Positions 151-63,682 of a stretch of DNA of 64,000 nt are shown piece after piece. A program made the translations under genes and the position numbers. The DNA comes from Nesterenkonia pannonica (lineage in GTDB: Bacteria > Actinomycetota > Actinomycetes > Actinomycetales > Micrococcaceae). The stretch lies in contig NZ_CP080575.1 in NCBI RefSeq assembly GCF_019575955.1, positions 1-64,000 on the forward strand, in the 5' to 3' direction. A model generated the notes under the pieces. It saw nothing but the letters and a program-made list of their open reading frames with translations, was not told the DNA's origin and did no database searches. Position 1 is the stretch's first letter. Each line of letters begins with the position of its first letter.

Positions 151-1891
151 GGTCTGCTCTCTCGGGGTGGTCGGAGGAGGTGTTCAGGCGCGGGGTCCGG
201 GCCGGTTCGGTGCGCCGCGGACGCAGCCGCTCGAAGGCGGCGGCGATGCGCAGCAGGGTCTGGTCGTCGTACGCCCGGGACGCGAACGTAAGCCCGACGG
301 GCATGCCGGTGTCATCCATCGTGCCCATAGGCACGGTGACGGTGGGGATCCCCAGGTGACGGGGCACGAGGTTGCCGTTCGCCACCCACACGCCGTTCCT
401 CCACGCCGCATCGGCTGCGGCGGGCTCCGTGTCGGCATCCGCGGGTCCCACGTCTGCCGCGGCGGGAAGGCCACCACGTCGAACCCGTTCCGGTCCATCC
501 AGTCCTCAAGGTCGACGCGGCGCGTCTCCTCCAGCCCCGCAGTCCGTGCTCGACTCCGGGCAGGGACTCGAGCGTCGGAGCGCCTGTCCTTTGAATGAGA
601 TCCGGGTATGTGCTGATGTCGTCGTCGAAGCCGTCGTACCTGTCGGGCAGTGCGCCTTCCGGGTGCGGGAAGATGTCTTCGCCTCGAACCTGTGTGAGGC
701 TGCTCAGCGCGGGTCGCCGTTGGCCTGAAGGAAGTCCTCCCACGCCCATGCGGCCAGTTCGTTGACCTCGAGCTTCAGGTAGTCGGGGTCGACGAGTCCT
801 CGGCTGAAGACTGTCGGAGCACCCGCGCGGTCCCCTTCGTAGCGGCTCACGGCGGGAAAGTCGGTGACCTCCACGCGTGCTCCGGCGCCCACGAGATCCG
901 CCTCGGCCTCCCGCCACAGCTGCAGGATGCTGTCCCGCACGCGGATCGGCTGGCCGGTGGGCCCTCCGATGCTTAAGCACTTTCGCGGCTGCCCGCCTCA
1001 TGGTCCTCACCGATGTACATTCCAGGCGCCGCGATGCGCAGACCGCTGAGGGTTCCGTGGGCGCGCTCTTCGGAAGGGCAGTCCAACTCACGATGGCTGC
1101 GGGGACTGACGTCCGAAGCCTTGGGCAGTGCGATCCAGGGCTGGGTGCGCCAGAAGTCTCCGCGGGAGTCGTGGTCGTCGGCGACGATGACGTCGAGCAC
1201 CTCAAGCATGTCGGTCATCGTCCGCGTGTGCGGGACTACCACGTCCATAGTGGGGACCAGCGGCCAGTTGCCCCGCACGGAGATCACTCCGCGTGAGGGC
1301 GTGTAGGCGCAGAGCCCGCTGTTGGAGGCGGGCGCCCTGCCCGAGGACCATGTCTCCTCCCCAGCCCGAACGCTGCGAAGCTCGCCGCAGTGGCCGTTCC
1401 CGACCCGTTCGAGGAACCGGACGCGAAGGCGGCGGCGAGATAGTCGGCGCTGTAGGGACTCTCGGCTCGGCCGTAGAGGCCCCTCTGCATCCCACCGTTC
1501 GCCATGGGCGGCATGTTCGTCAGGCCCAGGAGGACCGCTCCGGCCCCGCGAAGCCGCTCGATGGTGAAGGCGTCCTGCTGAGCGACCAGGTCTTTGAACG
1601 CCGGGGACCCCGCCGCGACGGTCATGCCTCGGACCTTGTAGCTGTCCTTCGCGGTGTACGGGATTCCTTCCAGCGGCCCGAGAGGGCGCCCTTCGGCGCG
1701 GCGCCGGTCGGAGGCTCGGGCTTCGGCCAGCGCCTCCGCGTTCCGGACCACCACAGCGTTCAGGCAGGGTCCCTGCTGATCGTAGGCATCGATGCGGCGC
1801 AGGTAGGCGCCCACAAGCTCTTCGGAGGTCGTGCTCCCGTCCTCCAGGGCGGCGCGCAGCTGGGGATGGTGGCTTCGACGACGTCGATCAT
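143..1891 (-). CDS. Amidase signature (AS) family amidase
   Basis: AS-family amidases hydrolyse carboxamides with a Ser-Ser-Lys triad. The start ATG at 1891 gives MIDVVEATIP, and after restoring one C in a C run near 1857 the frame continues through VGAYLRRIDAYDQQG. The triad region is visible: lysine in YTAKDSYKVRG and the serine loop GSSNGSGTATA. The frame breaks again near 1420, at 972-979 (a GCCGGC lesion; restoring it gives RESAGIGGPTGQP in frame) and near 450-700. The C-terminus reads HLGIPTVTVPMG and VGLTFASRAYDDQTLL, standard for the family; total about 580 codons. It lies 10 bp after agmatine deiminase, so N-carbamoylputrescine or another product amide is a possible substrate. That is inference: the classical enzyme for that step is a nitrilase-family protein. 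Confidence 0.8.
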
Positions 1892-1901
1892 CGGCTTCCT
1901 C

Positions 1902-2956
1902 TCAGGGTGCGGGCACTGCGCCCGGCGCGGTCGGGGACGATGGCTGCTGCTGGGTGATGCAGTGCACTCCGCCGCCGAACGCGAAGATGTCACGGGCGTC
2001 GACGCGTTCGACGGTGCGTCCCGGGTATTGCTCCTCGAGGATCTGCTGGGCCTTCTCGTCGCTGGGGTCCTGGAAGGCGCCCATGATGACGGCTCCGTTC
2101 GCGACGTAGTGGTTGATGTAGGACCAGTCGGACCAGCCGCTCTCATCCTGGAGCTGCTTCGGGGCGGGGAGCTCGGTGATGCTGATGGGGTCTCCGCTTA
2201 CGACTGTCGCGCTCTCCAGCACCTCGCGCAGCTCGCGGCTCACCTGATGGTCAGGGTGGCTGCGGTCCCGCTGGGTGTGCAGCAGGACCGAACCTGCCGG
2301 GGTGAAGCAGGCGACGATGTCGACATGCCCGCGAGTCCCGAACTCGTCATAGTCGCGGGCGAGGCCCGGGGAAGCCACACTGCGTGGTGGGTGCCGAGGC
2401 GCTGGTGGATCTCCGCCTCGATCTGCTGCTGGGACCACCCTGGGTTGCGCCCCGGATCCTGCTGGACGGTCTGTGTCAGCAGGACGGTTCCGCGACCGTC
2501 CACGTGGAGCCCGCCTCCTTCGTTGACCAGGGTGCTGGCGATGCGAGGGACCCCGGCCAGGCTAGGCGATCTGCTCCCCGACCCGTTGGTCCGCCTCCCA
2601 GGCGGCCCAGGATTGGGCTCCCCAGCCGTTGAACACCCAGTCCACGGCTGCCACCGCGCCGCTCTCGTCCCGCACGAAGGTGGGGCCGGAGTCCCGCACC
2701 CAGGCGTCGTCGAGGGAACGGCGTGGAGCTCGACGGCCTCAGGGAGAAGCGTCCTCGCCACCGCGATGTCCTCTGGCCTGACCAGCATTCTGACCGGCTC
2801 GTAGCCGCAGACGGCGGCGGCCACGTTCGCCCACGCCTGTCGGGCACGCTGCAGCGACGCAGAGCCGTGAGCGCCGAAGGTCTCGTTGGTAGGCGGGAAG
2901 GCCATCCACGTGCACTCGTGCGGCTCCCATTCGGACGGCATGCGCCATGAGGTCAC
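1902..2956 (-). CDS. aguA: Agmatine deiminase
   Basis: Hydrolyses agmatine to N-carbamoylputrescine and ammonia through a catalytic cysteine. The protein starts MTSWRMPSEWEPHECTWMAFP, the typical opening (RMPAEWEPH). DDAWVRDSGPTF is encoded around 2690-2720, the conserved guanidine-binding segment, and ALVNEGG-type sequence (TLVNEGGGLHVDGRG) follows. The end carries GGGVHCITQQQP with the nucleophilic cysteine. About 351 codons, normal for the family. The frame breaks in several places; at 2571-2577 the reading GCCTAGC is explained by GCCGGC, giving EQIAGLAGVPRIAS. The start overlaps the putrescine oxidase stop (2953), so the two are translationally coupled. Together they suggest arginine-derived agmatine and putrescine are used as carbon or nitrogen sources. 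Confidence 0.9.
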
Positions 2957-4339
2957 GACCGGGCCTCCAGGATCTCTTCGGCCGCCAGCCTACTCTGGCG
3001 CAGCGCACCGTCGACGTGCTGGTACCCCTCAGCGGCCAGATCGGAGCAGGCCCAGCGGATCGGCCCCACGGGGTCGCGCTGGTGGGCGCCGTATCGGTGC
3101 AGTCCGCCCAGGTCGTAGCTGGTGGCGTAGGCGCCTCTGGTCCACTCCTCGGAGGCGAAGTCCGACTCGTAGTACACCTCTGGGGTCAGCGCCTCCTTCC
3201 CGAGATAGTTCGCGAAGGAGCGCAGGATCCTGCTTCGGCGCTCCTCGTCGGGCAGGGCGAACAGCGCGTCGGCCACCTCGTCGGTGGCGAATCCGACCAG
3301 GGTGCCGCGGGCGTCGCCGTAGTTGGTGTTGTCATAGACCTCCTGGCACACCTCATCGGCCCCGAAGCCGGTGCCGGAGAGGCCCTTCTCACGCCAGAAC
3401 GGACGGTCGTAGACGGCGTGGACCTTGATCACCAGACCCATGGCCTGGTGCTGGTGCATCTGGTGCTGCAGGCGCGGCAGAGGCGGCTCGAAAGAGATGC
3501 GGCTGTAGAGGTTGGGCGGGACGGCGACGATCACATCGTCAGCCTGAACGGTGACACGGTCGGACCACAGGGTCGCTCCGCCTGTCTCGTTCCAGCGAAT
3601 CGTGCGCACGGGGGTTCCCAGGTGCACGGCCTCGCCCAGCTCTTCGGCCAGGGCGACGGATACGGACTGCATGCCGCCCACCACCCGGCGGTCGAGGATG
3701 AAGCCTTCGTCGACGAGATTGCTGAAGGAGCCCGCGGAGGCCGCCATCAGAACGGCCTGGAGCGCCGAGAAGGCGTGCGCGGGCTTGGTGAGCATGCCTC
3801 CTGCGACGAAGATGCCGATGTTCCGGCAGGCCTCCTCATCCGATGACTGCGTCCTCAGCCAGTCGTGGAAGGAGATGGTGTCGAGCTCGCGCGCCTTGGG
3901 GTGCGCCCACGGCTCGTGCGGCCCGATCTCAGCGGCCAGCTGGTCGAGGACCCCGGTCAGCCGCTCGATCTCTTCGGCCGTCTCCGAGGCGACGGGGAAT
4001 GTGTCGCCGGTGTAGACGTGCCGGACTCCGTCGGAGCCGATGAAGACGTTCGAGCCCTCCCGGTAGCGCTGGTAGGTCTCCTTGCCCAGCTCCTCCACCA
4101 GACCGAGCAGCTCGGTCTGGTCGGGCGAGACCCACTGGCCCCCGATTTCGAGGAAGGCACCGTCGACGGTGTCAGACCATGTGCGTCCGCCGACGCGGTC
4201 GCGGGCCTCGAGCACGACCACCCGCAGGCCCCTGCGCGCTGCGGTGCGGGCAGCCATCAGGTTTAGCAGGCCCAGCCCCTACGATGGCCAGGTCGCACGT
4301 CACGACGTTTTCGCTGCCTATGTGCCGGATGTTCTCCAC
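2953..4339 (-). CDS. puo: Putrescine oxidase (FAD-dependent amine oxidase)
   Basis: Flavin amine oxidase that oxidises putrescine to 4-aminobutanal with release of ammonia and hydrogen peroxide. A Rossmann FAD motif (DLAIVGAGPA) is followed by VLEARDRVGGRTW, GGQWVSPDQTELL and AHPKARELDTISF, segments I recall as closely matching the Kocuria/Micrococcus rubens enzyme. Near the C-terminus lies TRGAYATSYDLGG, part of the FAD-binding end. The frame breaks once, at about 4260, where GTTTAGC stands for GCCGGC; restored it gives GPAGLMAARTAARRG. I chose a GTG start at 4337-4339 because GGAGGT sits just upstream of it; an in-frame ATG at 4381 is an alternative. First gene of the minus-strand operon and divergent from the TetR gene, its probable regulator. 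Confidence 0.9.
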
Positions 4340-4367
4340 AGCACCTCCCATATGTCTGCGCATCAGA

Positions 4368-4389
4368 TTAATGAACAGCATTCATATTA
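4368..4389. promoter_or_regulatory. Candidate TetR operator (imperfect inverted repeat)
   Basis: The divergent promoter region between puo and the TetR gene contains TTAATGAA, a five-base spacer, then TTCATATTA. The core TGAA-N5-TTCA is symmetric and the outer arms match except for one extra base. It is AT-rich in an otherwise GC-rich region. Position and symmetry fit an autoregulatory TetR operator; this is inference. Confidence 0.45.
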
Positions 4390-4464
4390 CAGCTTCTGTG
4401 TTGCTGGCGTGTTACTTCCATCACTAGACTTGCAAAGTTCCCACCCCTGCCGATAGGAGCCCCT

Positions 4465-5162
4465 GTGCCGACCGATCAGCCGCGTCGCGGCAGGGGACGT
4501 CCCCGCCAGCCCATCCTCTCCGGACAGGCGATCACCGATGCTGCGCTGAAGATAGCCGCCGATCGGGGCCATCATCAGCTGACGGTGGCGAGCCTGGCCC
4601 GCGAGCTGGGCGTCTCTGCGTCGGCGCTGTACAACCATGTGAGGTCCAAGGACGAGCTGATGCTCTGGGTCCAGGATCGGCTGAATGAGGAGATCGACGC
4701 GTCGGTCTTCGACCGCCTGCCCTGGCATGAGGCGCTGATCGCCTGGGCACGCTCCTACCGGAACTGCTTTGCCCGGAATACGGCCATGATCCCCATCATG
4801 GCGGTGCTCCCGATCGCTGACGCGCCTCGCACCCTGGACATGTACGAGCGGGTGATCCGGGGCCTCACCGATGCCGGGATCGATCCGCAGGATGCCCTGG
4901 AGATCATTGTCGCGGTGGAGGCGTACGCCTTCGGCGCCGCATATGACGCCACAGCGCCATGAACATCTTCGAACCGGGCGACCCGGAGCGGGCCCCCACC
5001 TTCGCCGCCGCGGCAGCGGCCCGCGCCAAGGAGCCCTCAGAGGCTGCCGATCGCGCCTTCGAGCGAGGCCTGTCGGCGATGGTGCGCGGCTTCAGAGCCG
5101 ACGTCGACAGCGTCGACGCCTCGGGCGCTACGCGCCGGGCAGAGCCAGGGCCTGCTTGCTGA
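4465..5162 (+). CDS. TetR/AcrR family transcriptional regulator
   Basis: An N-terminal helix-turn-helix reads AITDAALKIAADRG, then LTVASLARELGVSASALYNHV, a textbook TetR DNA-binding domain with the conserved tyrosine. A basic arm (RRGRGRPRQP) precedes it. The ligand domain contains WHEALIAWARSYRN. A stop at 4960-4962 is probably a lost base: the next frame continues at once with MNIFEPGDPERAP and ends at 5162, giving about 230 residues, the normal TetR_C length. The GTG start at 4465 has AGGAG six bases upstream. Divergent from puo, so the likely role is repression of the polyamine operon. Its 3' end overlaps the convergent histidine phosphatase by about 35 bp. Confidence 0.85.
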
Positions 5163-5832: not shown

Positions 5833-5864
5833 GCGGTCCAGTCTTCCAGAATCGGGCCTGACTC

Positions 5865-6468: not shown

Positions 6469-6507
6469 AGGGCTCAGCCTACGTCCGCGCTCGCCTCAGC
6501 TCTGCGG

Positions 6508-7956: not shown

Positions 7957-9276
7957 TCAGCTCGCTGAGCTGCGCGTGAAGAGCCTACGCATGGGGCGAC
8001 CAGGTAGCTTACTGCGCATCCCGCAGCAGCCCAGGCCCCCAGGAGCCCGGCTGCGACCAGCGCATCGGGGCCCACGTCGACGAAGCGCCCCACCCCCAGC
8101 GACAGGTGCGAGAGCCACAGCGGACCCACGAGCAGCAGACCCGCCATCAGGCCTGTCAGCGTGCCCAGCACCGCAGTGGACACCAGCAGGGAGACGGGCC
8201 GGAAGCGGATGGTGCGGGCGCACCAGTCGTCGAAGTGGTTCTCGCCCTCTCGAGCCAGCCAGATGCCGGCTGCAGAGCCCAGCAATGACCGGCAGAGCGA
8301 GGACCAGCCACGCGTGCTCCAGGCCCTCCTGCGGCACTGCTGCCAGCAGCGGAGATGCTCAGCCGCGGAGGCACCCGCCGTTCCGGGCTGCACAGTGGTG
8401 CTTACCCTACGCTGAAGCTTAAGCACCGGTGGTGTAGGCGAGCGTCCACATCACCATGTTGGGCACCAGAGCAAGCTGGAGAACCGTCAGGCCCACGGCG
8501 CCTACCACCCCGCCTCGGCCTGCTGGTAGGCGTTGGCGATGTCGATCCACTGCACGAGCACCACGACGGCGAAGAGAGTCCCGGCGAGCGCGAGAGAGGC
8601 CGCCGCGGCGACGGCACCCGCTCGAGTGACAGCCCACAGGTAGGAGCCGGTCCATTTGATCCGGGCGGACCAGCGATCGATGCGCTCGTCCATGTCCATC
8701 CCGAACATGCGCGTCACGCTCCGGGCCTCCCAGACGCAGCCTCCCGCAGAGGCGAGCACGGCAATTCCTCCTGCGGCCGCGGCAGCCCACACCGGTGAGG
8801 TAGCGCCGAACGGCGTGTCCACCCAGGCGGCCAGCTGCACCGCGGCGAGCACGACGATCAGGACGAACATGAGCAGCCCCAGCCACAGCTGCGTGGGATA
8901 GGCCCCATCGCCAGTTACGCCCGGAGCGCCAGCAGAGCATCGCCGGAATGAGCGTCAGCCCCAGGGGCACGGCATGGAACGCGGCCTCACGGCCCACCTC
9001 GCCGCCTCCCAGATCCAGGGGCTGCGAACATGATGAGCCACAGCTGCCCGGCCAGCTGGGCCGCACCGATGACATCCCACGCGGCGGGCTCGGCCAAGAA
9101 CGTGAGCAGCCCCACCGGGATCGCCACCAGGAGAGCTGTGAGCAGAACGACCTGAACCCCTTCGAGCAGTCCGAAGAGCCACAGCGGCGCCGCTTAAGCA
9201 GGCGCAGCCAGCGCCGACGGCGGCCGGCGGAGGCGTCGTCACGTGCGGGTTGAGGGTCCTCGGACATCGTTCCCAT
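7957..9276 (-). CDS. DUF6350 family multi-pass membrane protein
   Basis: A long hydrophobic protein of about 440 residues, the size and composition of actinobacterial DUF6350 proteins (related to PerM-like proteins in corynebacteria). Membrane helices visible in the different frames include VVLLTALLVAIPVGLLTF, LMFVLIVVLAAVQLAAWV, LAGTLFAVVVLVQWI, LTVLQLALVPNMVMWTLAY and LLVSTAVLGTLTGLMAGLLLV. The middle is badly broken: GCTTAAGC at 8417-8424 and 9193-9200 and GCTTAC near 8008 are explained as GCCGGC, the remainder as lost bases. Function is not established; an envelope or cell-division role is only suggested by relatives. The next gene starts divergently at 9344. Confidence 0.65.
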
Positions 9277-19323: not shown

Positions 19324-20237
19324 TCAGCCCTTGAAGATCTCCCGCAGCAGCTCGGCGGTCTCGGAGGGCGTCTTGCCGACCTTCACGCCTGCCGCTTCGA
19401 GTGCTTCCTTCTTGGCCTCGGCCGTGCCCGAGGAGCCGGAGACGATGGCGTTTGCGTGGCCCATGGTCTTGCCCTCGGGAGCGGTGAAGCCTGCGACGTA
19501 GCCGACGACCGGCTTGGTGACGTGGGCCTTGATGTACTCCGCGGCGCGCTCTTCGGCGTCTCCGCCGATCTCGCCGATCATCACGATCGCCTTGGTGTCC
19601 GGGTCGTTCTCGAACGCTTCGAGCGCATCGATGTGGGTGGTGCCTATGACCGGGTCGCCGCCGATTCCGATGCTGGTGGAGAACCCGATGTCTCGGAGTT
19701 CGTACATCATCTGGTAAGTCAGAGTGCCGGACTTGGACACCAGTCCGATGGGGCCGGACTCCGTGATGTTCGCCGGGGTGATGCTTACCAGCGCCTCACC
19801 GGGGTGATGATGCCGGGGCAGTTCGGGCCGATGACGCGGGTGATCGGGTTTCCGTCGTCGTCAGTGGTGGTCGCAGCCAGGTTGTAGAACTCGGCTGTGT
19901 CCTGCACCGGGATGCCCTCGGTGATCACCACGAGCAGGCCGATGCCTGCCTCGATGGCCTCGATCGCAGCATCCTTGGCGAACTTCGGAGGGACGAAGGC
20001 CACGGACACGTCGGCGCCGGTCTTCTCCATCGCTTCGGAGACGGAGCCGAAGACGGGCAGCTCTGTCTCGTAGCCGTCCTTGTGGATGTGGGTGACGTGC
20101 GAGTTTACTTTGCGGGCGTTGACTCCGCCCACGATGTTGGTGCTTACCCTGAGCATCAGGGCGGTGTGCTTGGTGCCCTCGCCGCCGGTGATGCCCTGGA
20201 CGATGACTTTGGAGTCTTTGTTGAGGTAGATCGACAT
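19324..20237 (-). CDS. sucD: Succinyl-CoA ligase [ADP-forming] subunit alpha
   Basis: TCA-cycle enzyme subunit that binds CoA and carries the phosphohistidine. The N-terminus reads [21 protein letters not shown], then [44 protein letters not shown] and the active-site loop [13 protein letters not shown] with the phosphorylated His. About 303 residues. Three GCCGGC lesions are diagnostic: GTAAGC near 20143 (restores MLRAGTNIVGG), GTAAAC near 20105 (restores ARKAGSH) and GTAAGC near 19790 (restores EALAGITPANIT). One C is also missing near 19801. Follows sucC by 16 bp. Confidence 0.95.
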
Positions 20238-20253: not shown

Positions 20254-21416
20254 TTACTTGTTCGCCAGCTCGGCGGCCTGGTCGGCCCCTGCGTCCATGG
20301 TGTCGGCCGTGGTGACCAGCGGGTGGTTGGCGTCGGCCAGGATCTTCCGGCCTGCCTCCACGTTGTTGCCGTCCAGGCGCACGACCAGCGGCTTGCTGGC
20401 GGTGTCGCCCAGAATGTCCAGAGCCTTGACGATGCCGTTGGCGACGGCGTCGCAGCTGGTGATGCCGCCGAAGACGTTCACAAACACCGACTTCACCTGA
20501 TCGTCCGACAGGATCACGTCGAGGCCGTGCGCCATGATCTCCGCGGAGGCACCGCCTCCGATGTCGAGGAAGTTGGCGGGCTTGACCCCGCCGTGAGCCT
20601 CCCCGGCGTACGCGACCACGTCGAGAGTGGACATCACGAGACCGGCGCCGTTGCCGATGATGCCGACCTGACCGTCGAGCTTCACGTAGTTCAGCTCGTG
20701 CTCGGCTGCCTTGGCCTCGAGCGGGTCCACAGCGGACTCGTCGATCAGGTCAGCGTGCGCGGGCTGGCGGAAGGCGGCGTTCTCGTCGAGGGTGATCTTG
20801 CCGTCCAGCGCGATGATGCTGCCGTCGGCAGTCCTCACCAGCGGGTTGACCTCCACCAGCGAGGCGTCCTCTTCCTTGAAGACTCTCCAGAGCTGCTTGA
20901 AGACCTTGGACAGGGCAGGGGCGTCGGCTGCGTCGAATCCTGCCTTGGCGGCGATGTAGCCGCCCATGGAGCCGGTGATGCCCACGTTGGGGTCGAAGTT
21001 GACCCTTGCCAGCTTCTCCGGGGACTCCACGGCGAGCTGCTCGATCTCCACGCCGCCCTCCTTGGAGCTCATGGCGAGGTACTGGCGCTCTGCGCGGTCC
21101 AGGAGGATGGAGAAGTAGTACTCTTCGACGATCTCGGCGCCCTGGGCGATCATGACCCGGTGCACCGTGTGGCCTTTGATGTCCATGCCGAGGATGGCCT
21201 CGGCGTGCTCGTAGGCCTCCTGCGGCGTCTTGGCCAGCTTCACGCCGCTTACCTTGCCGCGGCCGCCGACCTTCACCTGGGCCTTGATGACCACTGTTCC
21301 GCCGATCTTCTCAGCGGCGTTCTTTGCTTCTTCGGGCGTGGTGGCGACGATGCCGCGAGCACGGGGACACCGTGCGCCTCGAACAGATCGCGCGCCTGGT
21401 ACTCGTAAAGGTCCAC
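20254..21416 (-). CDS. sucC: Succinyl-CoA ligase [ADP-forming] subunit beta
   Basis: ATP-grasp subunit of succinyl-CoA synthetase. I chose GTG 21416, giving [20 protein letters not shown], the canonical start; the frame shifts near 21360 by one lost G and then runs uninterrupted. Visible motifs: [42 protein letters not shown] (metal-binding Asn and neighbouring Asp), [21 protein letters not shown] and [20 protein letters not shown]. At 21248 GTAAGC replaces the expected GCCGGC of GRGKAGGVKLAK. About 388 residues. First gene of the sucCD operon, downstream of pcrA. Confidence 0.95.
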
Positions 21417-21491: not shown

Positions 21492-23931
21492 TCAGCCGAG
21501 TTTCTCCAGGGAGCATATCGCAGGAGAAGACGCTTCTCGGCACCGCTGAACGCGACCTTCGCCACTGTCTTGTCCCCTGAGCCCTCCACGGACAGGACCT
21601 CGCCGATGCCGAACTTGCCGTGCTTCACCTGGTCCCCGGGGCTGAGCGAGGGAATCTCCCGGTCGGGGTTCACGTTCTTCGGCGGCGCCGAAGCGGGCGC
21701 TCCCCATACGACCCCTGGTCAGGGCCTCGTCGCCGCCCCAGCCTGTCCTGCCGAGACTTGAGCCTGAGCCGAAGCCCGACAGTGCCGAGCCGCGGGAGCC
21801 CGGGGTGCGGCTGGTGACGGAGTCCGGGCTCAGGTGGAGGAGGTGCTCCGGGATCTCCGCGAGGAACTGGCTGGGCGGGTTGTAGGAGACCTGGCCCCAG
21901 AGGCTTCTCGACTCAGCGCGCGTCAGGAAGAGACGGTGCTCAGCTCGTGTGAGGCCCACGTAGGCCAGACGACGCTCCTCGGAGAGCTGGTCTGTGTCGC
22001 CCATGGCGCGCTGGTGGGGGAAGACACCGTGCTCCATGCCGGTGAGGAAGACGACAGGGAACTCCAGCCCCTTGGCGGTGTGCAGCGTCATCAGAGTGAC
22101 CTGCCCTGCTCGGCCGCCAGCCGGGCCGACTCGTCATCGGGGGCGTTGGGTATCGCGTCTGCGTCAGCGATGAGGCTGACCTGCTCCAGGAAGCCCTCCA
22201 GGGAGGCGCCCTCCGTGCCTACTCTCGTACTCCTTCATCACCGCGACCAGCTCGCCGAGGTTGTCCGCGCGGGACTCGTCCTGAAGGTCCTTCGACTCTC
22301 GCAGCGCCGCCATCATGCCGGACTGCTCCAGCACCGCCTCCAGCACCACGGAGGGGTTCTCGTCCGCTGCGAGGCTGGTGACATCGTCGATCATGCGCAC
22401 GAAGGAGGCGATCTGCTTCACCGCGCGGGTGGAGGCTGCGGTCTCGTCCGCCCGGCGCAGCGCTTCGAGGAACGTGATCCGGTCCCGGCCTGCCAGCTGG
22501 GCCACCGCACTCTCCGCCTTCTCACCGATGCCCCGCTTCGGCTCGTTGAGCACCCGCCGAAGATTCACGTCGTCATCGGGGTTGTTCACCACGTGCAGGT
22601 AAGCCAGAGCATCCTTGATCTCTTTGCGGTCGTAGAACCGTGTGCCGCCGATGACGCGGTAGGGGATGCCGCGGTGGATCAGGCGCTCCTCCAGGGACCT
22701 GGACTGGGCGTTGGTCCGGTAGAACACCGCCACATCCGAGGGCTTCACGCCCTCATCGTCTCCGAGACGGTCGATGGTCCGAGCGATCCACGCTGCCTCG
22801 TCCGACTCCGAGTGTGCCACGTGGAGGGTCACGTCCGGCCCAGCGCCGGACTCCGTCCAGAGGCTCTTCTCCTGACGGGCGGTGTTCTGGGAGATGACCG
22901 CGTTGGCGGCGTCGAGGATGTTCTGGGTGGAGCGGTAGTTCTGCTCCAGCTTGATGACCCGCGCCTGCGGGTAGTCCCGCTCAAACTCGGTGATGTTGCG
23001 GATGTCTGCGCCGCGGAAGGCGTAGATCGACTGGTCGGAGTCGCCGACCACCGTCAGCTCGGCAGGACTGGTCTCCACCTCGTCGTCCGGTGCTGTGAGC
23101 TGCCTGATGAGGCGATACTGGGCGTGGTTGGTGTCCTGGTACTCGTCGACGAGGACGTGTCGGAATCTGCGGCGGTAGCTGTCGCGCACCGCGGGAACGC
23201 CTCCAGCATGTAGACGGTCTCGGTGAGGAGGTCGTCGAAGTCGTAGGCGTTGGCAGCTCGCAGCCGCGCGGAGTATTCGCCGAATACCGTGGCGACCGCC
23301 TCGGAGAACGGCTCGCTGGGAGCCGTGGCGCGGAAGCTCTCCGCATCGACCAGCTCATTCTTCAGCGCGCTGATCCTGTTGCGCAGGGCCCGGGGTGCGA
23401 ACCGCTTGGGGTCCAGCTGGTGCTCCTTTGCGATCTGGGTGACCAGGCGCAGGGAGTCTGAGGCGTCGTAGATGGTGAATGTGGACTTGCGGCCGATGGT
23501 GGACGCCTCCGCCCGGAGGATCCGCACGCAGGAGGAGTGGAACGTGGAGATCCACATGCGCTGGGCGGCCTACCCGATGAGCCGTTCGATGCGCTCCTTC
23601 ATCTCCCGGGCGGCCTTGTTGGTGAAGGTGATCGCCAGGATCTCGTGCGGCCGGGCCGCTCCGGTGCGGATCAGGTGGGCGATCCGCCGGGTGAGCACCG
23701 CCGTCTTGCCCGAGCTTAAGCACCGGCGACGATCAGCAGCGGAGAGCCGCCGTGGAGGACGGCCTCCCTCTGCTGCGGGTTGAGCCCCTCGACGGCTGTC
23801 TCCGAGGGCGCTGGAGGCTCCTGAAGAACGGCCGGGCCGCTGTGGTCGTGGACGCCGTCCCGCTCGTCGTTCCGGGCTGAGCGAGGCCTCTCGCCTACGC
23901 GCTGCGAAGGCGGAGTGAAGAGAAAATCCAT
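21492..23931 (-). CDS. pcrA: ATP-dependent DNA helicase PcrA/UvrD
   Basis: Superfamily 1A 3'-5' helicase for repair and rolling-circle replication. The N-terminus includes [22 protein letters not shown]; the Walker A region is split by GCTTAAGC near 23715, and reading it as GCCGGC gives [18 protein letters not shown]. Then [18 protein letters not shown] (motif Ia), [10 protein letters not shown] (motif II), [16 protein letters not shown] (III), [10 protein letters not shown] (IV), [20 protein letters not shown] (V) and [15 protein letters not shown] (VI). The C-terminus has the PcrA-type tail [16 protein letters not shown] and ends LEKLG. About 813 residues. Further breaks near 23570, 23180, 22225, 22105 and 21690. 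First gene in its strand block; the divergent EamA transporter begins 100 bp away. Confidence 0.93.
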
Positions 23932-26264: not shown

Positions 26265-27904
26265 TCAGCTGCTGCCCGCAGCCGCGGAGGCGAGCTCCTC
26301 CATCTGGTCCCGGCGGTCGACGACGTATCTGGTCTGCCGCATCCGCGACGTCACCGGCCGCATGAGCACGTCTCCCAGCGCGATCCCGCCGGCGATCGCC
26401 AGAATGATGATCAGCGCGGTGAAGAGCTGGTGAAGCCCAGCATTCATCATCTCGGATGAGGAGCCGAGGGCGATCTGGTACATCCCGCGGAAGATGATGA
26501 GGCCTGGAAGCATGAACATCATGGCAGGCACTGCGATGACGAGGATGGGCGCCTGCATGCGCAGCGCGATGATGCGGGCGAGCGCCCCGATGACCACAGC
26601 CCCACGATGGGTGAGAACCAGATCCCCAGCCCGAGAGTGTCGGCCGCGTAGTACGCCGAGAATCCCAGACAGGCCACTGCGCCGGTGGGCAGCAGCAGAC
26701 GCCAGGGGCCTGTTCGACGATGGCTGCCGTCACACCGGTGGCCAGGACGAGGACCGCGAGCGCGGACGGGTGGTAGAGGTGCGTGATGCCCTGGACGATC
26801 TCCACCTCAGGGGCGCCCAGGACGTCGGCGACGATGACCGCCGTCATGATCCCCGCCGTCATTCCGGCGAAGGACACCAGCGTGGAGACCAGGCGGTAAG
26901 CGGCGGTGATGGGGAAGGAGTGGATGACGTCCTGCATGGCGTTGACGATGCGCACACTGGGAAGAAGGATCATGAGGCCTCCGGCGACCACCATGGAGGG
27001 GGTGATGTCGGCCCCGAGCCAGAGGGCGGAGAGCGCGACCGAAGTGGCTGCGAATCCGCTTACTGCGAGGGTGAAGATCTCCGGGACCCTCCACGCATGC
27101 AGCTGGCGCGTGATGCCCAGCACCAGGAGTGTGGCGGCGAAGCCGAGGAACGCATCCAAAGGTGGAGCGCCGGTGTAGCTGGCGAACAGGCCCGCGAACA
27201 GTGCGCCCGAAACCGTCACGACCCAGCGGGCGTAGGGCTTGGGCTGGCGTCGGATGTCCCGCAGGCGCTTCTTCGCCTGCGCACGCGTGACGCGGCCGGT
27301 GATGATGTCTGTGACCATCTGGTGCAGCTCGCAGAGCGCACGGAAGTTGCCGGACCAGGATCGGACCACGCGGACCCGCGAGTAGGGGAACCTCCTCGGG
27401 CGCCCAGTTGAAGATGATCGACTGGTTGGTGATGTCCACGTCGGTGTGGTCCATGCCGTAGGCGGCAGTGACCGCGATGATGCTGGTCTCTACGTCGAAG
27501 GCTCCCGCCCCGTAGCGGAAGAGGGTCTCGCCGAGGTCGAGGACGAAATTGATGGTCTCCAGCTCGTCGGCCTCGTGGGTCTGCTCGGCGAGGATGGGGT
27601 TGGCGTAGGGCGTGCCGGTGAGCCGGTCGACCAGCGGCAGGACAGCGGTGGCCGTCTGCACAGGCTCGATGACGCGCCGGAAGATGTGGCGCGTGTCGGC
27701 CCTCTGCTCGAAGGCGGACGGGTCGAAGGCCTGCTTCTTCGGTGCGCGGCCGCGCCGCTGCTCCCGAGGCTTGCGGCGCGGATCCTTCTTCGGTTTCTCG
27801 GCCTCCTCGTCGGCAGCAGGCCTGACCACCGGCATCAGCTGCGAGGTGGTGTCAGGCTTCGAGACGGTCGGGTCGATGGGGACTGGTGGGCGGTGAGGCG
27901 GCAT
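26265..27904 (-). CDS. ThrE-type threonine/serine exporter
   Basis: Membrane exporter of the ThrE/YjjP-YjjB family in one chain of about 546 residues. A ~115-residue charged, Pro/Lys-rich N-terminus (AEKPKKDPRRKPREQRRG) is followed by the ThrE signature DLGETLFRYGAGAFDVETS and ITNQSIIFNW, then ten hydrophobic helices, ending MFMLPGLIIFRGMYQIALG and VLMRPVTSRM. GTAAGC at 27058 and GCTTAC near 26894 are GCCGGC lesions: the restored sequences TLAAGGFAAT and AAGRLVSTL match the second ThrE copy at 60848-62845. Breaks near 27390 and 26700. Follows the gas-vesicle operon by 200 bp on the same strand, with no clear terminator between. Confidence 0.88.
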
Positions 27905-35887: not shown

Positions 35888-37019
35888 ATGAGCCTGGCGC
35901 CCTTTTGTGCCTCAGACCCGGGGAGACTGGATGTTCGAGCTGTGAGGAGAGCCCCTTCAGCTGCGACCGACGGCGAGTCCGGGTCCCGCATTCAGGCTCT
36001 GGACGCCGCCCGAGGGCTGGCCATAGTCGGCATGATCGCAGTCAACGTGGGGCCCCTCGACGGCACATCGTTCTGGGACTCGCTCTACCGTCTCCCCACG
36101 GACGGGCATCTCTCCTCTTCATCGTCCTGGGCGGCATCGGCTTCACACTCATCACCCGCCGGGCGAGGTCCGGTCACCTCAGGATCCCCTGGGGAACGTT
36201 CCTGTATCGCAGCGGCCTCCTGCTGCTCCTCGGCCTGCTGCTCCAAGAGCTGGACCACGGTGTCCGGGTCATCCTGACCAGCTATGCCGCTCTCTTTCTT
36301 CTGGGACTGCCGCTGGTAAGAGTAAGCAGCAGGGTGCTTCTTGCGCTGGTTACACCAGCGTGGCCCTCGGCCCGTTGGCATGGATCGTCATTCACGATGA
36401 CCATCCGACCGGCTTCAAGCGCGAACCGATCACCGCAGACCAGCCCGCCCTTGAGATAGTGGCCGACATCCTGGTGACCGGACCCTACCCCGTGGCGGTA
36501 TGGGCCGCACCCTTTCTGCTGGGCATGTGGCTCGGCCGACTGAACCTGCGGGACCCCCGCGTCAGCCTGCGCCTGATTGTCTGGGGCGGACTGACAGCCG
36601 TGTCCGCCCGCGCTGCATCTGCGCTGCTCATTCGGGCCCTCGGCGAACCGTCCAGCCACAATGACTGGCAGAGGCTGGTCAGCGATGTCGCCCACTCCGA
36701 AATGCCTCTATGGGTGATCGGCGGCACAGGCTCCGCCGTCTTCGTTCTCGGCCTCTGTCTCAGAGTTCCGACGTGGAATCGGCCCTGGCTGTCTCCCCTC
36801 ACCTCACTGGGGCGTCTCGCGCTGACCGCCTACGCAGCGCACCTGGTGGTGCTGGCCCTGCTCGTGAGACCAGGCCCTGAGGGACTTGCGGCTGGGGCCG
36901 CCGCGACTGCGCTGCTGTGCGGCGCGCTCATGCTCTTTGCCGTGATCTGGCTGCGCGTGATGCAGAGGGGGCCTCTCGAAGCGCTGCTCAGGCTCCCGAG
37001 ACAGGCCAAGGCCCCATAG
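35888..37019 (+). CDS. DUF418/DUF1624-type multi-pass membrane protein
   Basis: Starts with an unconserved N-terminus, then RIQALDAARGLAIVGMIAVN, the hallmark of the acyltransferase-like DUF418/DUF1624 proteins (first helix RxxxLDxLRGxAIxGM). Further helices: LLFIVLGGIGFTLITRRARS, FLYRSGLLLLLGLLLQEL, LTSYAALFLLGLPLVRV, APFLLGMWLGRLNLRD, VFVLGLCLRV and LTAYAAHLVVLALLV. About 377 residues; breaks near 36105 and 36340. Homologues are thought to modify envelope glycans, but no reaction is established. The 170 bp that follow, up to the tRNA, show nothing I can support. Confidence 0.75.
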
Positions 37020-56288: not shown

Positions 56289-56311
56289 GCATTGAGCGGA
56301 TTATGCGGAGA

Positions 56312-57947
56312 TCACATCATTCCGCCCATGCCGCCCATCGGGTCCATGCCTTCGGCTCCGCCTCCGGCTGGGTGCTTCTCCGGAATGTCAGCCACCACTG
56401 CCTCAGTGGTGAGGAACAGCGAAGCGATGGAGGCAGCGTTCTGCAGCGCAGAGCGCGTCACCTTCACCGGGTCGTTCACGCCTACTCCAGGAGGTCCTCG
56501 TACTCGCCTGTAGCGGCGTTGAGGCCCACTCCGTCGGCCAGGCCCTTGACCTTCTTCCGCCACAACGCCTACCTCGAGGCCTGCGTTGACGGCGATCTGC
56601 TTCAGCGGGGCTTCGACCGCGAACTTCACGATGTTCGCACCCGTAGCCTCGTCGCCCTCGAGCTTCAGGCTCGCGAAGGCTCGTGCGCCTACCTGGATGA
56701 GAGCCACGCCGCCGCCTACGACGATTCCCTCGTCCACGGCTGCCTTCGCGTTCCGGACAGCATCCTCGATGCGGTGCTTGCGCTCCTTGAGCTCCACCTC
56801 GGTGGCGGCGCTAACTTTGATCACGGCCACACCGCGGCGAGCTTGGCCAGGCGCTCCTGGAGCTTCTCGCGGTCATAGTCGGAATCCGAGTTGGAGATTT
56901 CGGCCTTGATCTGGTTGACGCGGCCAGCGATCTCGTCCGCATCGCCTGCACCCTCGACGATGGTGGTCTCGTCCTTGGTCACGACCACCTTCCGGGCGGT
57001 GCCGAGCAGGTCGAGGGTGGTGTTCTCCAGCTTCAGGCCGACCTCTTCGGCGATGACCTGGCCGCCGGTGAGGACCGCGATGTCAGCCAGCATGGCCTTG
57101 CGGCGGTCGCCGAAGCCGGGAGCCTTGACAGCCACGGACTTGAACGTGCCCTTGAGCTTGTTGACCACCAGTGCGGCCAGGGCCTCACCCTCAACGTCCT
57201 CTGCGATGACCAGCAGCGGCTTGCCGGACTGCATGACCTGCTCGAGGACTCCGATGACGTCCTTCACGGACGAGATCTTGGAGTTCGCAATGAGGATGTA
57301 GGGGTCCTCGAGGACTGCTTCCTGACGCTCTGCGTCGGTGACGAAGTAGCCGGAGAGGTAGCCCTTGTCGAAGCGCATGCCCTCTGTGAGCTCGAGCTCC
57401 AGGCCGAAGGTGTTGGACTCCTCGACCGTGATGACGCCTTCCTTGCCGACCTTCTCGATCGACTGGGCGATGAGGTCGCCGATCTGCTTGTCAGCAGCGG
57501 AGATGGAGGCCGTCGCAGCGATCTGCTCGGTGGTCTCGATCTCCTTGGCGGCCTTGAAAAGCTCTGCTGTGACTGCCTCCACGGCCTTGTCGATGCCGCG
57601 CTTGAGTCCGACCGGGTCAGCTCCGGCTGCGACGTTGCGCAGGCCTTCCTTCACCAGAGCCTGTGCGAGCACAGTGGCAGTGGTGGTGCCGTCGCTTACG
57701 ACGTCGTCGGTCTTCTTGGCGACCTCCTTGACCAGCTCGGCCCCGATCTTCTCGTAGGGGTCCTCGAGCTCGATCTCCTTGGCAATGGAGACGCCGTCGT
57801 TGGTGATGGTGGGGGCGCCCCAGGACTTCTCGAGCACCACGTTGCGGCCGCGGGGCCCAAGGTGACCTTGACGGCGTCGGCGAGCGCGTTCAAGCCTCGC
57901 TCGAGACCGCGTCGGGCCTCTTCGTCGAATGCAATGGTCTTGGCCAT
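56312..57947 (-). CDS. groL: 60-kDa chaperonin GroEL
   Basis: ATP-driven folding chamber, about 545 residues. [60 protein letters not shown] (nucleotide site), [19 protein letters not shown] and [19 protein letters not shown] are all canonical. The C-terminus ends GGMGGMM, the GroEL2-type tail. Breaks near 57855, 56830, 56560 and 56490. Six places where actinobacterial GroEL has Ala-Gly read as Val-Ser or Val-Gly here and are explained by GCCGGC lesions. No groES adjacent, so this is the stand-alone groL copy. Upstream are two CIRCE operators, so regulation by HrcA is expected. Confidence 0.95.
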
Positions 57948-58076
57948 ATGTGCACTGTCCTTCCTGGACCTTTTGATCTGACGATATTGGGGGAACCCTG
58001 TCAGATGCCCGCGACGGACGGCCCGCTCCCGCGTCACCGGGAGCATGGAATGGCCTTCACCTGTCAGGTTCAGCTT

Positions 58077-58103
58077 TTAGCAGTCTCACTCTGAGAGTGC
58101 TAA
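58077..58103. promoter_or_regulatory. CIRCE operator 1 upstream of groL
   Basis: TTAGCAGTC-N9-GAGTGCTAA: matches the HrcA operator TTAGCACTC-N9-GAGTGCTAA with one mismatch. Confidence 0.85.
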
Positions 58104-58110
58104 CACAATT

Positions 58111-58137
58111 TTAGCACTCACCCCCGGCGAGTGCAAG
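58111..58137. promoter_or_regulatory. CIRCE operator 2 upstream of groL
   Basis: TTAGCACTC-N9-GAGTGCAAG: perfect left arm, two mismatches in the right arm, seven bases from operator 1. Tandem CIRCE copies are known upstream of actinobacterial chaperonin genes. Confidence 0.7.
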
Positions 58138-58184
58138 GGAGGGGGCACCTGGAAGGACGCCGTCCTGCCGGTATTGTTGGCGCG

Positions 58185-59326: not shown

Positions 59327-59356
59327 GAGCACGCGATGCCCGCCGGAGGGCGCGTG

Positions 59357-60070
59357 CTACTCCGCGTCCACGAACTGCTGAAGCTCGTCCGTGGAGTTCT
59401 GCAGGGAGTACTCAGGGCCCACGACGATGACGGCAGTCTCCCACGCAGGGTTCAGGGATGTGTTCTCGAAGCCCATCGCCTCAGCGACCTCCTGAGCAAA
59501 CTCCGCCTGACCCTCCTCAGGGTAGAAGACCACCGGCGTGCCGACTTCGCCCCATGAAGGCTCCCAGTCCAGGCGTCCCGTCACATTGAAGCCCTGCTCG
59601 GCCAGCCGGTAGTTCACATCGCTGGCCGACCAATCGGGCGCACCCGCGTTGGCAACGCGCACGGGGGTGTCGAGATCGACGCCCTCCTCCTCGTCCTGAG
59701 CGGCATCCTCAGCGTCCTCTTCCTCCTCGGGAGCAGCCTCGTCCTCCGCGGCCTCCCCTTCAGCCTCGTCGTCCGCCGCGCCCTCTTCAGCATCGTCGCC
59801 CGGCTCCTGCTCCTCGAGCTCATCCTGGTCGCCCGCCTGGTAAGCCTCCGGGTCCTCGTCGGAGCCGAAGAGAGGCAGAATCAGGTACACGGCCACCACC
59901 GCGACCAGCACCACAGCAGCCGCCAGGCCGATCCACTTCATCGGACCGGAGGCTCCCGATGCCGCCGCCGCTCCGCCGCCATGGGATACGCTCCGTAGGC
60001 GCGGTGCTTTCCGGCCTCGCCTGAGGAATAGGGGCGACGTCGTCGAACTCGTCGTGGGGAACTGGCTCAT
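59357..60070 (-). CDS. LytR C-terminal domain protein, membrane anchored
   Basis: About 237 residues. The N-terminus probably reads DEFDDVAPIPQARPESTAPT in the alternative frame near 60030; one helix follows (WIGLAAAVVLVAVVAVYLIL), an extracytoplasmic acidic stretch of ~80 Glu/Asp/Ala residues, and a LytR_C domain: VRVANAGAPDWSASDVNYRL, FNVTGRLDWEPSWGEVGTPV, VFYPEEGQAEFAQEVAEAMG and VIVVGPEYSLQ. LytR_C domains occur on wall-associated proteins; function unproven. The stop is 30 bp from the end of FemAB. Confidence 0.8.
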   Translation of the reverse strand: MSQFPTTSSTTSPLFLRRGRKAPRLRSVSHGGGAAAASGASGPMKWIGLAAAVVLVAVVAVYLILPLFGSDEDPEAYQAGDQDELEEQEPGDDAEEGAADDEAEGEAAEDEAAPEEEEDAEDAAQDEEEGVDLDTPVRVANAGAPDWSASDVNYRLAEQGFNVTGRLDWEPSWGEVGTPVVFYPEEGQAEFAQEVAEAMGFENTSLNPAWETAVIVVGPEYSLQNSTDELQQFVDAE

Positions 60071-60153
60071 GGACGCGATTCTACGGGCGCAGCAGCAAGC
60101 AGTCCCGCATTTCGCGGCCTGATCCCGGCGGGTGCTTCATTAGGGTGACACCT

Positions 60154-60838
60154 ATGGGAGTGAGTGATGAAGCATCTGCCCCGCTGGACCCGGGCTGGGA
60201 GCGAGCGCTCGAGGGGCTCGAGCCTCAGTTCGCGAAAGTCCGCGAGGAGCTCGTCGCGCGCCGCAGCGGAGGTGAGCAGATCCTTCCCGAGCCCCACCAT
60301 GTGCTGCGTGCGTTCAGGCAGCCCTTTGAGCGCGTCAGAGTGCTCATCCTGGGTCAGGACCCCTACCCCACGCCGGGCCACCCGATCGGGCTGTCCTTCG
60401 CCGTGGAGGAGAGCGTGCGGCCCCTGCCGAAGTCGCTGAACAACATCTTCAAGGAGCTGGAGTCCGACTGCGGCGTGCCCCGAGCCCCCACGGCGATCTC
60501 ACTGCGTGGGCTGACCAGGGGTGCTGATGCTCAATCGTGTCCTGACCGTGGCCGCGGGAAGGCCCGCCTCTCACCGGGGCATCGGCTGGGAGGAGATCAC
60601 GGAGACGGCGATCCGGGCGCTGGCCGGGCGCGGCACCCTCTGGTGGCCATCCTGTGGGGCGCAGAAGCCCGTCGGCTCCAGCCGCTGCTCCATGACGGAC
60701 CGAACACCGAGGTGATCGTTTCCCGCACCCTCGCCGCTGTCCGCCTACCGAGGGTTCTTCGGCTCCCGGCCGTTCAGCAGAGCGAATCAGGCCCTGGAAG
60801 CTATGGGTGCGGCTCCAGTGGACTGGCGGCTGCGGTGA
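60154..60838 (+). CDS. ung: Uracil-DNA glycosylase
   Basis: Family 1 UDG, removes uracil from [23 protein letters not shown] carries the catalytic Asp (GQDPYP), then [40 protein letters not shown] with the Asn-binding pocket region, [17 protein letters not shown] and the reconstructed [20 protein letters not shown], the catalytic His loop. About 228 residues; breaks near 60515, 60640 and 60735-60745. ATG 60154 chosen ([10 protein letters not shown]). The stop is 9 bp from the ThrE stop. Confidence 0.92.
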
Positions 60839-60847
60839 GACCGCCGA

Positions 60848-62845
60848 TCAGCGTCGGCGGGAGCGCGAGCGTTCGTTCGACTTCAGCGCCGTGGTGAAGG
60901 GGCGCATGATGACGTCGCCCAGCACGATGCCGGCGGCGATCGCCATGATGATGATGAGCGCGTTGAACAGCTCGAACAGTCCGCCGATCATGGAGGCCGT
61001 GGTGTTCTCGATGGCCAGCTGATACATGCCGCGGAAGACCATCAGCCCAGGCAGCATGAACATCATCGCCGGGACCGCCACCACCAGCTGAGGGGCGCCC
61101 AGCCGCAGCGCCACCACACGCCCGAGGGCTCCGACGATCGCCCCGCCGATCACAGGGGTGAAGCGCTCGCTGAGCCCGATGAGTTCGCCAGCATAGAGCC
61201 CGCAGAACCCCAGAGCGCCCACCGCCCCGGTGGGGAGGATGAGCACCGGGCGGCTCTGCTCGACCACCGCGGCGGCCGAGCAGGCCAGGAACACCAGCGC
61301 GATGAGGATCAGCGGGTGGTAGAGACGCTCCAAGCCTTGGGCCAGCTCCTGCTGGCTGACGCCGAGCAGGTCGGAGATGACCACGGCGGCCATGATGCCA
61401 AGCAGTCATTCCTGAGAAGGCCATCAGGGAGGAGACGATCCTTCCGGCGGAGGTCAGCGGAAAGCCGTTGATCGTATCCTGCAGGGCGCCCACGATCCGC
61501 ACACTCGGCAGCAGAATCATCAGCCCGCCGGCGACCACCATCGAGGGGTGACCTCCGCATCCAGGCCGAAGACCGTCATCGCGAACGCGGAGGCGATGAA
61601 GCCGCCCGCCGCGAGCGTGAAGAACTCCGGAACACGCCATGCTGCAAGCTGGCGGGTCGCCCACAGGACAAGGAGCGTCGCCGTGAAGCTAGGCGATCGC
61701 GTCGAAGATCGGCGCTCCGAGGTAGCTGACGAAGAATGAGGCGAAGATCCCGCCGCAGAGCGTGACGAGCCATCGCGGATACGGCTTCGGCTCACGCGTG
61801 ATCTCCGTGAGCCGAAGCTCCGCCTCGCTTCGAGTCAGGCGGCCGGAGGTGATGTCCGTGACCAGCCGGTGCACGGCGGAGAGCGCGTTGAAGTTCGAGG
61901 ACCACGACCGCACCACGCGCACCCTGGAGTAGGGGATCTTGCCCCGGGCGCCCAGTTCAGGCTGATGGACTGGTTGGTGATGTCCACCTCGGTGTTCTTC
62001 ATGCCGAACGCGGCCGTAGCGGCGATGATCGATGTCTCCACCTCGAGCGCCCCAGCGCCGTAGCGGAAGAGCGTCTCGCCCAGGTCCAGCACAAAGCTGA
62101 TCGTCTCCAGCTCATCCGCCTGGACGGGAAGCTCCGTGTGCTGGCTCTGGGGAGACCGCTGGACGTGCTCGTAGGGCGTTCCGGTGAGCCGGTCCACGAT
62201 CGACGTCTGGCGCGTGGCCAGGCGCTCGGGCTTCATCAGCCGGTTGAAGACGTGCTGGGGGCTCACGCGGAGGTCGAAGACCGTCCGGTCGAGAAGCTGC
62301 CCTTGGAGGCCTGGTGCCCGATCCGCTCCTTCAGCCAGGAGGGGTGAAGCACAGACCGCCGCCGCAGCGGGGAGGCGGGCGGCTGGTCGGATCCCGCAGC
62401 CTCAGCGATGCCGAGAGCGGGGTCCCCGGCGTGGTCGGCGCGGGTCCGGTCTGGGGCTCCGCAGAGTCGGCGAGGAGAATTCGTTGGAGTACGAGTGCCG
62501 CGTCTGCTGCTGAGTCTCGGCCTCTTCTAGCGCCCGGGCGGCGGCTTCGGCGTCGTACTCCTCCCACTCGAGGGTGGCCTCCTCCGCCGCGGACCGCCAG
62601 GAGGAGGCGATGGAGCCGGTGAGGCTGGAGACGAAGCCTTCGTCCTCCGCGGGCACGTCCGCGCTGGGCTTCACGAGCGGTATCAGGCTCGTGTCCACCT
62701 CAGGCTCTGAGATCACAGGATCGATCGGCTCTGACTCGTAGCCGGTCAGACCTGTCTCTGAGCTGAGGGGATCACGGGGCTTCTCTCCGGCATTCGAGCT
62801 CCGGCGGTGCTCCTGCTCCACAGCACCCTCCTCCGGAATCATCAC
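60848..62845 (-). CDS. ThrE-type threonine/serine exporter (second copy)
   Basis: Paralogue of the 26265-27904 gene, about 665 residues. The ~210-residue N-terminus is longer and acidic (SEPIDPVISEPEVDTSLIPL, TLEWEEYDAEAAARALEEAE). DLGETLFRYGAGALEVETSI, ITNQSISLNWAPG and VRVVRSWSSNFNAL match the family; the transmembrane half ends MFMLPGLMVFRGMYQLAIEN and VIMRPFTTALKSNERSRSRR. GCCTAGC near 61688 and GCTTGGC near 61401 are GCCGGC lesions: restored IAGFTATLL and TAGIMAAVV. Other breaks near 62460, 62310, 61935 and 61550. It ends convergently with ung, and tRNA-Val lies 42 bp upstream of its start. Confidence 0.87.
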
Positions 62846-62886
62846 TGCGACTGCGGACGCAGCCAGAAACCCGACGGTCGTTCGGT

Positions 62887-62959
62887 GCTCGCCACTGGAT
62901 TCGAACCAGTGACCTCACGCGTGTGAAGCGTGCGCTCTAACCAACTGAGCTAGGCGAGC
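62887..62959 (-). tRNA. tRNA-Val (anticodon CAC)
   Basis: Minus strand: acceptor GCTCGCC/GGCGAGC, D arm GCTCAGTTGGTTAGAGC, anticodon stem CACGC/GCGTG around TTCACAC (anticodon CAC), T arm ACTGGTTCGAATCCAGT. CCA not encoded. Confidence 0.95.
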
Positions 62960-63019
62960 GGACTGATGCCGCGAACGGCAACGCCCAACCTTATCAGGAT
63001 TATCGAGCTGCCTTCCAGT

Positions 63020-63682
63020 TCAGCGGATCGCTTCGGCGATCGGGGTGCTTCCGTCGAAGAAGTTCACCCGGGTGCGCTCTGCGGCACCGCTCTGGAGGAC
63101 GTGACGAATCACTTCAGCAACATTCTCGCGGCCGGTCGAGGCGACCTCAGCATCGTCGGCTTCGACGACGCGAACAGTCCCGCTGGCTAAGCTCTTCAGT
63201 CAGCTTGCCGGGACCGAGGATCGCATAGTTCAGCTTCGTGCTGCGCAGGTGATTGTCGGCGTGGTGCTTGGCCGCCGCGTACGGATAGAAGCTGCTGTCA
63301 GTGTCCAGGGTGTGGATGTCCGTCTCACTGCGGGCGTAGGAGACCATCACATACCGAGACACCCCGGCCTGCTCTGCGGCATCCATGCTTCGGATGGCCG
63401 CGTCCTGGTCCACCGCGCGCGTCCGCTCGGGGTTGCCGCCGCCTGCTCCGGCGGAGAATACGACTGCCTCAGCACCTGCGAACGCTTCGGCCAGGGCAGC
63501 GGTGTCGGCCTCTTCGACGTCCAGGACGACGGGTTCTGCCTGCGCGCTGCGCACATCCTCGGCCTGCTCCGCCTTGCGGATCAGGGAGCGGACGGAGAAT
63601 CCGGCCTCTGCCAGCTTGGGGCGGCGAGCAGGGCAATCTTCCCGTGGCCTCCGATGATGACGACGGTTCCGCGTTCAGCCAT
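63020..63682 (-). CDS. NAD(P)H-binding NmrA/SDR-type protein
   Basis: Atypical short-chain dehydrogenase. MAERGTVVIIGGHGKIALLA holds the GxxGxxG dinucleotide loop; VVLDVEEADTAALAEAFAGA, VVFSAGAGGG, YVMVSYARSETDIHTLDTDS and YPYAAAKHHADNHLRSTKLN (YxxxK) follow, with the PGKLTEE stretch typical of NAD(P)-binding SDR5-like proteins. A GCCGGC lesion near 63186 restored gives TEEPASGTVRVV; the C-terminus NFFDGSTPIAEAIR ends at 63020. About 221 residues with another break near 63620. Reaction unknown. Confidence 0.85.

Follow-up and report, generated by a model that had tools for sequence, protein, structure and literature searches.

Depletion of GCCGGC and its recurring substitute words in the Nesterenkonia pannonica assembly most likely record DNA methylation

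In the first 64 kb of the single 2,699,453-base contig of Nesterenkonia pannonica (NZ_CP080575.1, G000:C1 in coordinates; this stretch, with a G+C content of 66.5%, is called the window throughout), the first-pass annotation noted that where the encoded proteins require GCCGGC, the DNA often reads GTAAGC, GCTTAC or a close variant, and it ascribed these words to consensus errors at a modified motif. The question raised is whether the words are true bases or a trace of how the DNA was read. The evidence suggests that they most likely record DNA methylation rather than real mutations. With a probability of roughly 0.93, they are a sequencing artefact whose cause is biological, in which an unpolished nanopore consensus was misread at GCCGGC sites marked with 5-methylcytosine (5mC) by a NaeI-type restriction-modification system. 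Both the restriction-modification system and the error type are of already known kinds. The gene names sucC and sucD were checked here, and all other gene names are taken over from the first-pass annotation.

Loss of GCCGGC across the contig

The loss is evident genome-wide. In the whole contig GCCGGC occurs 686 times and the reversed word 2715 times, which gives a ratio of 0.25; across the other genus genomes searched, 29 in number, the ratio runs from 0.919 to 1.461. GTAAGC, counted on both strands, occurs 1238 times compared with a maximum of 544 in any of those genomes. A 312 kb sample of the genome (the window plus sampled stretches of the same contig) was compared with 473 kb from two relatives in the genus, G015 and G018. 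Of 1606 hexamers, none is more enriched than GCTTAC/GTAAGC (136 seen, 18.6 expected), and GCCGGC, with 66 copies where the density in the relatives predicts 466.5, is the second-most depleted hexamer behind CCCCCC/GGGGGG. The replacement of GCCGGC by footprint words, as claimed for the window, is thus confirmed for the genome as a whole.

Within the window the plus strand carries 13 copies of GCCGGC, 11 of GTAAGC, 20 of GCTTAC and 6 of the 8-base word GCTTAAGC, where 98.5, 2.6, 1.9 and 0.0, respectively, would be expected in 64 kb at the density of the two relatives; GTTTAC is present twice, GCTAAC three times and GTTAGC not at all. A maximum-order Markov test inside the window finds no excess of GTAAGC or GCTTAC because the flanking words share the same excess, and relatives are therefore required for the comparison. 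Over the whole contig GCTTAAGC is found 165 times, the highest count among the 390 family genomes searched. The second-highest count, 154 against 5 of the reversed word, belongs to G170 from another genus of the family; as another case of this kind G170 was rejected, since GCCGGC is undepleted there (1986 vs 740).

The identity of the lost motif follows from counts corrected for the expectation from each genome's own shorter words (Markov correction). In this test GCCGGC shows the strongest depletion among 2570 hexamers, with 66 copies seen and 221 expected, and is followed by TCCCCC and GGGGGA, whereas the relatives show 728 copies for an expected 768. The other 15 words of the form NCCGGN lie at 0.76-1.35 of the expectation (0.80-1.20 in the relatives), which rules out CCGG as the motif, and their uncorrected density, at 0.59-0.91 of that in the relatives, is far above the 0.14 of GCCGGC; it is therefore the full six-letter word, its two outer letters included, that is depleted. 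Apart from homopolymers, the corrected list contains no second motif of like strength.

The same counts bear on the proposal that GCCGGC is a hard context for the basecaller and was misread without any modification. The assembly also shortens homopolymers, which indicates a basecaller weak in G+C-rich contexts, and the lowered raw density of the other NCCGGN words points the same way. However, these 15 words are undepleted once corrected, and context alone would hardly account for a single strict motif that coincides with the NaeI-type genes described below. The proposal is extremely unlikely. The sites that were read correctly do point to some role for context, as C or T precedes the intact motif at 0.80 of the 66 copies on both strands compared with 0.58 in the relatives, and this preference suggests that basecaller context decides which GCCGGC sites survive. 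The related statement that intact copies often stand in CCGCCGGC is only partly right, the two preceding bases in the 13 window copies being CC in seven and AT in five. Four of the five intact copies located earlier were placed correctly to within one base, and the fifth lies at 61527 rather than 61518.

Comparison with relatives and between the contig ends

Multi-relative alignments covered the window at 18.8-23.0, 22.0-25.0 and 53.0-63.5 kb, and were scored at places with 10 or more aligned relatives, of which half or more read GCCGGC. None of the nine such majority places, four in the sucD/sucC stretch and five at 56.36-56.84 kb, is kept in the window, which reads GTTTGC, GCCTGC, GTTTAC, GCTTAC, TCCGGC, GCCTAC (three times) and one form that is a base shorter; the pcrA stretch was likewise aligned and has no place with a GCCGGC majority. 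Among the controls, the window keeps 2552 of 4422 other hexamers; for other hexamers made up only of G and C the figure is 89 of 168, and for other palindromes of that composition 10 of 24. Compared with all other hexamers, the complete loss at the nine places has a P value of 4e-4, although some of the places depend on one another. The GCCGGC that had been deduced from the encoded proteins for the sucC site at 21248 and the sucD site at 20105 is indeed what nearly all aligned relatives carry there (Table 1).

The closest relative used for pairwise alignment of the window was G015, for which 5 of the 20 matching segments were excluded before counting, four of them because they repeat another region of the window and one as a poor match (window 35996-36988, 67% identical). 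In this alignment 3 of 90 GCCGGC are kept, while the mean for all hexamers is 0.30. G015 reads GCCGGC opposite GCTTAC at 7 of 14 aligned places and opposite GCCTAC at 6 of 16. Opposite GTAAGC it does so at 1 of 8, and the substitute words thus lean to one strand here. GTAGGC, which had also been listed as a substitute word, faces GCCGGC at none of 10 places and, judged by this alignment, looks native. All 12 sites named in the first-pass annotation have a footprint-like word no more than about 8 bases away, in looser variants at 4260, 10991, 41365 and 42784. Ten of them align to G015, which has GCCGGC nearby at four; the other six are neither confirmed nor denied, because ordinary hexamers are themselves so rarely kept in this alignment.

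A further comparison is provided by the contig itself, as the first part of the window is repeated at the far contig end (Table 1), with the two copies 99.93% identical by blastn. When the differences between them were sorted by eye, 12 were of a kind other than homopolymer length. The same piece of DNA has here been read in two ways, and consensus errors are therefore present at places where the copies disagree. The contig is a circular chromosome left untrimmed, with the genes in the overlap of ~38.5 kb counted twice. Another feature of the assembly is the near absence of CCCCCC/GGGGGG, with 2 copies against 84.6 expected in the 312 kb sample, which is a homopolymer signature; the depleted six-base runs of C or G form a second source of frame breaks.

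These results can be set against the possibility that the words are true bases, with GCCGGC either avoided owing to the cell's own restriction system or mutated by deamination of 5mC. The base 5mC is mutation-prone, avoidance of restriction sites is a known effect, and a NaeI-family endonuclease is encoded in the genome. On the other hand, the contig ends read the same stretch in two ways, most of the substitutes alter 2-4 adjacent bases or the length, and the list of open reading frames (ORFs) shows both sucD and the pcrA stretch broken up over different frames, with the completeness score of the contig at only 62.49%. Genomes with similar genes, considered in the next section, provide further evidence on this point.

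Table 1 Features of the window discussed in the text
Feature	Position in window	Strand	Observation
Span of reported effect	972..63190	.	effect runs on across the 2.7 Mb contig (whole-genome counts; eleven 20 kb stretches sampled for its spread)
Footprint GCTTAC in sucC	21247..21252	.	GCCGGC in 18/19 genus relatives
Footprint GTTTAC in sucD	20103..20108	.	GCCGGC in 17/19 or 18/19 relatives (two alignments)
Altered site GCCTGC in sucD	19944..19949	.	GCCGGC in 14/19 relatives
Altered site GTTTGC	19450..19455	.	GCCGGC in 11/19 relatives; contig ends disagree at 19453
Footprint GCCTAC	56567..56572	.	GCCGGC in 17/29 relatives
Footprint GCCTAC	56687..56692	.	GCCGGC in 17/29 relatives
Footprint GCCTAC	56714..56719	.	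GCCGGC in 21/29 relatives
Altered site, 1 base short of motif	56834..56838	.	GCCGGC in 24/29 relatives
Stretch repeated at far contig end	1..38480	+	equals G000:C1 2660977-2699453; 22 differences, 10 of homopolymer length
GCCTAC here, GCTTAC in second copy	8500..8505	.	contig-end comparison
GCTTAAGC here, GCTGGC in second copy	8417..8424	.	contig-end comparison
GCCGGC here, 1 base shorter in second copy	26388..26393	.	G015 also GCCGGC
8-base word GCTTAAGC	23714..23721	.	at the pcrA site of the first-pass annotation
Other GCTTAAGC copies	971, 8417, 9192, 35526, 37737		window count
Intact GCCGGC	8265..8270	.	one of 13 intact copies
Remaining intact GCCGGC	9223, 9877, 10401, 11408, 17475, 18168, 24865, 26388, 29993, 45053, 60929, 61527		window count

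A NaeI-type gene set

A search for a DNA-modification gene matching the motif, as had been recommended, leads to a locus at ~174.7-177.1 kb of the contig, where a C5 methyltransferase, a NaeI-family endonuclease and a Vsr are found together. The methyltransferase lies on the plus strand in two frames, and PF00145 matches both pieces (182.1 bits at 174687-175313, with the second piece at 175409-175564; E 1.1e-53). The endonuclease lies on the minus strand in four pieces, each of which matches PF09126 above the cut-off (E 2e-27 for one piece and 7.3e-21 for another), and one of them matches the solved NaeI structure, PDB 1ev7, with an E value of 1.7e-19. The Vsr is encoded in an open frame of 145 residues on the plus strand (TIGR00632, E 1.2e-35). 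The known site of NaeI is GCC^GGC. At 59.9%, the G+C content of the locus (L030 6601-9150) is lower than the 65.6% of the genome sample, and among the genus genomes scanned only G020 also has a PF09126 match; judging from the sequence, the locus was possibly gained by transfer.

Across the family, PF09126 matches occur in 15 of 395 genomes, 14 of them above the cut-off, with the N. pannonica genome included in both counts. The 14 other genomes comprise 10 with full-length NaeI matches, three with partial matches above the cut-off (G020, G252 and G364) and one with a match below it (G199), and all keep the ratio of GCCGGC to the reversed word at 0.85-1.70. Insofar as these systems, known from sequence matches, are representative, having a NaeI-type system does not appear to empty a genome of GCCGGC, which speaks against avoidance. 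The Vsr-family gene in the genome likewise argues against the substitute words being true bases, and there is hardly any probability left for that explanation.

The link between the methyltransferase and the motif is strengthened by the relatives, as 9 of the 10 full-length NaeI loci fetched from the family have a relative of the methyltransferase at a distance of at most 1.5 kb. A scan with the methyltransferase gave 29 named loci, of which the nearest, at 75%, is from Glutamicibacter nicotianae; Vsr is nearby in 8 of the 29 and NaeI in 6. A different origin of the mark has also to be considered, in that it might be set by a second C5 methyltransferase, or might not be 5mC. A second PF00145 match is indeed present at ~1.761 Mb of the contig (L031 6675-7592) and makes its gene a possible contributor. 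The first methyltransferase, however, is the one that adjoins the NaeI-family endonuclease, as its relatives do in the fetched loci, although the small share of named loci with NaeI nearby weakens this objection. No footprint motif of its own is seen for the second methyltransferase in the Markov-corrected hexamer list, and such an origin of the mark seems unlikely. Inspection of the ORF list by eye suggests prophage-like surroundings for the second gene.

Proposed origin of the footprint and known parallels

According to the preferred explanation, the C5 methyltransferase of a NaeI-type Type II system would put 5mC on GCCGGC in both strands, and the mark would shield the DNA from the host's own NaeI-like endonuclease. 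Native DNA would then have been read by nanopore with a basecaller untrained on the mark, and the assembly would have received no polishing with short reads or unmodified data. The reads would yield GTAAGC-like words from one strand and GCTTAC-like words from the other, and the consensus would either retain one of the words or fuse both as GCTTAAGC, with frame shifts as the result. The mark being 5mC, the methyltransferase being active, the nanopore platform and the strand origin of both words are the parts of this scheme that we infer. The earlier claim that the consensus is corrupted at modified GCCGGC is supported, as far as sequence evidence goes, by the motif-specific loss, by the disagreement of the contig with itself and by the presence of the NaeI-type genes. 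Because 66 of the 466.5 sites expected in the 312 kb are read right and the errors are mostly 2-4 bases wide, a mark other than plain 5mC, that is, a less usual modification, was also considered; it appears very unlikely.

Several points weigh against this explanation, in addition to the lowered raw density of the NCCGGN words and the second methyltransferase mentioned above. First, the methyltransferase and the endonuclease are found in broken frames, which makes their activity an assumption; the locus does contain C runs and footprint-like words, which fits consensus error but does not prove the genes intact, and the mark itself is deduced from the consensus. Next, five of the nine majority places fall within 500 bases, one of the nine, TCCGGC at 56363, could be a genuine difference, and G015 reads GCCGGC opposite GTAAGC at just 1 of 8 places; similarly, five of the 12 non-homopolymer differences between the contig ends align to G015, which has GCCGGC at one of the five. 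Finally, the plus strand of the whole contig has 732 copies of GCTTAC compared with 506 of GTAAGC (P 1.4e-10), an excess that a symmetric mark alone leaves unexplained. The ratio of the two words differs from stretch to stretch along the contig, and consensus tie-breaking or uneven strand coverage could be the cause.

For users of the genome as deposited, the sequence is misleading, as misreading probably accounts for many of its unusual residues and split genes and, through them, for the low completeness of 62.49%. At the same time, a consensus without any reads was enough to indicate the methylation motif with single-base precision and, from there, to find the restriction-modification genes that match it. 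Unpolished public nanopore assemblies could therefore be searched for methylation specificities in the same way and marked for renewed polishing.

The gene set resembles the NaeI system (Type IIE, PDB 1ev7/1iaw) in the NaeI-family endonuclease, the linked C5 methyltransferase and the GCCGGC footprint, and differs from it in being known from genes in broken frames and in the linked Vsr. A literature search on M.NaeI returned no paper about the enzyme by title. One review prints the NaeI site as GCC|CCG, which is taken here as a misprint (PMC4081073). The errors are similar to modification-mediated nanopore errors (Dcm CCWGG; Listeria, Modpolish) in their motif-bound mismatches and accompanying homopolymer errors. 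In a Klebsiella benchmark of the then-current nanopore basecallers, Dcm sites made up ~70% of consensus errors, with homopolymer errors present too (PMC6591954), Listeria strains with modification-mediated errors were rescued by whole-genome amplification (PMC10687267), and mismatches at 5mC are reported in Neisseria (PMC12506013). In contrast to the Dcm and Listeria cases, the motif here is GCCGGC, the errors are 2-4 bases wide and include fused 8-base forms, and the modification is derived from the consensus.

As to the mark, Neisseria and Aeromonas are both reported to carry 5mC at GCCGGC (PMC6789123, PMC12871193, PMC8565308, PMC8112702). The mark proposed here would match that of NgoAIV of Neisseria gonorrhoeae, 5mC at GCCGGC (PMC6789123), a case from a different organism, with footprint words not mentioned in the available part of the Neisseria account. 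By nanopore calling, 32 of the 33 GCCGGC sites of pilE and pilS were methylated (PMC12871193).

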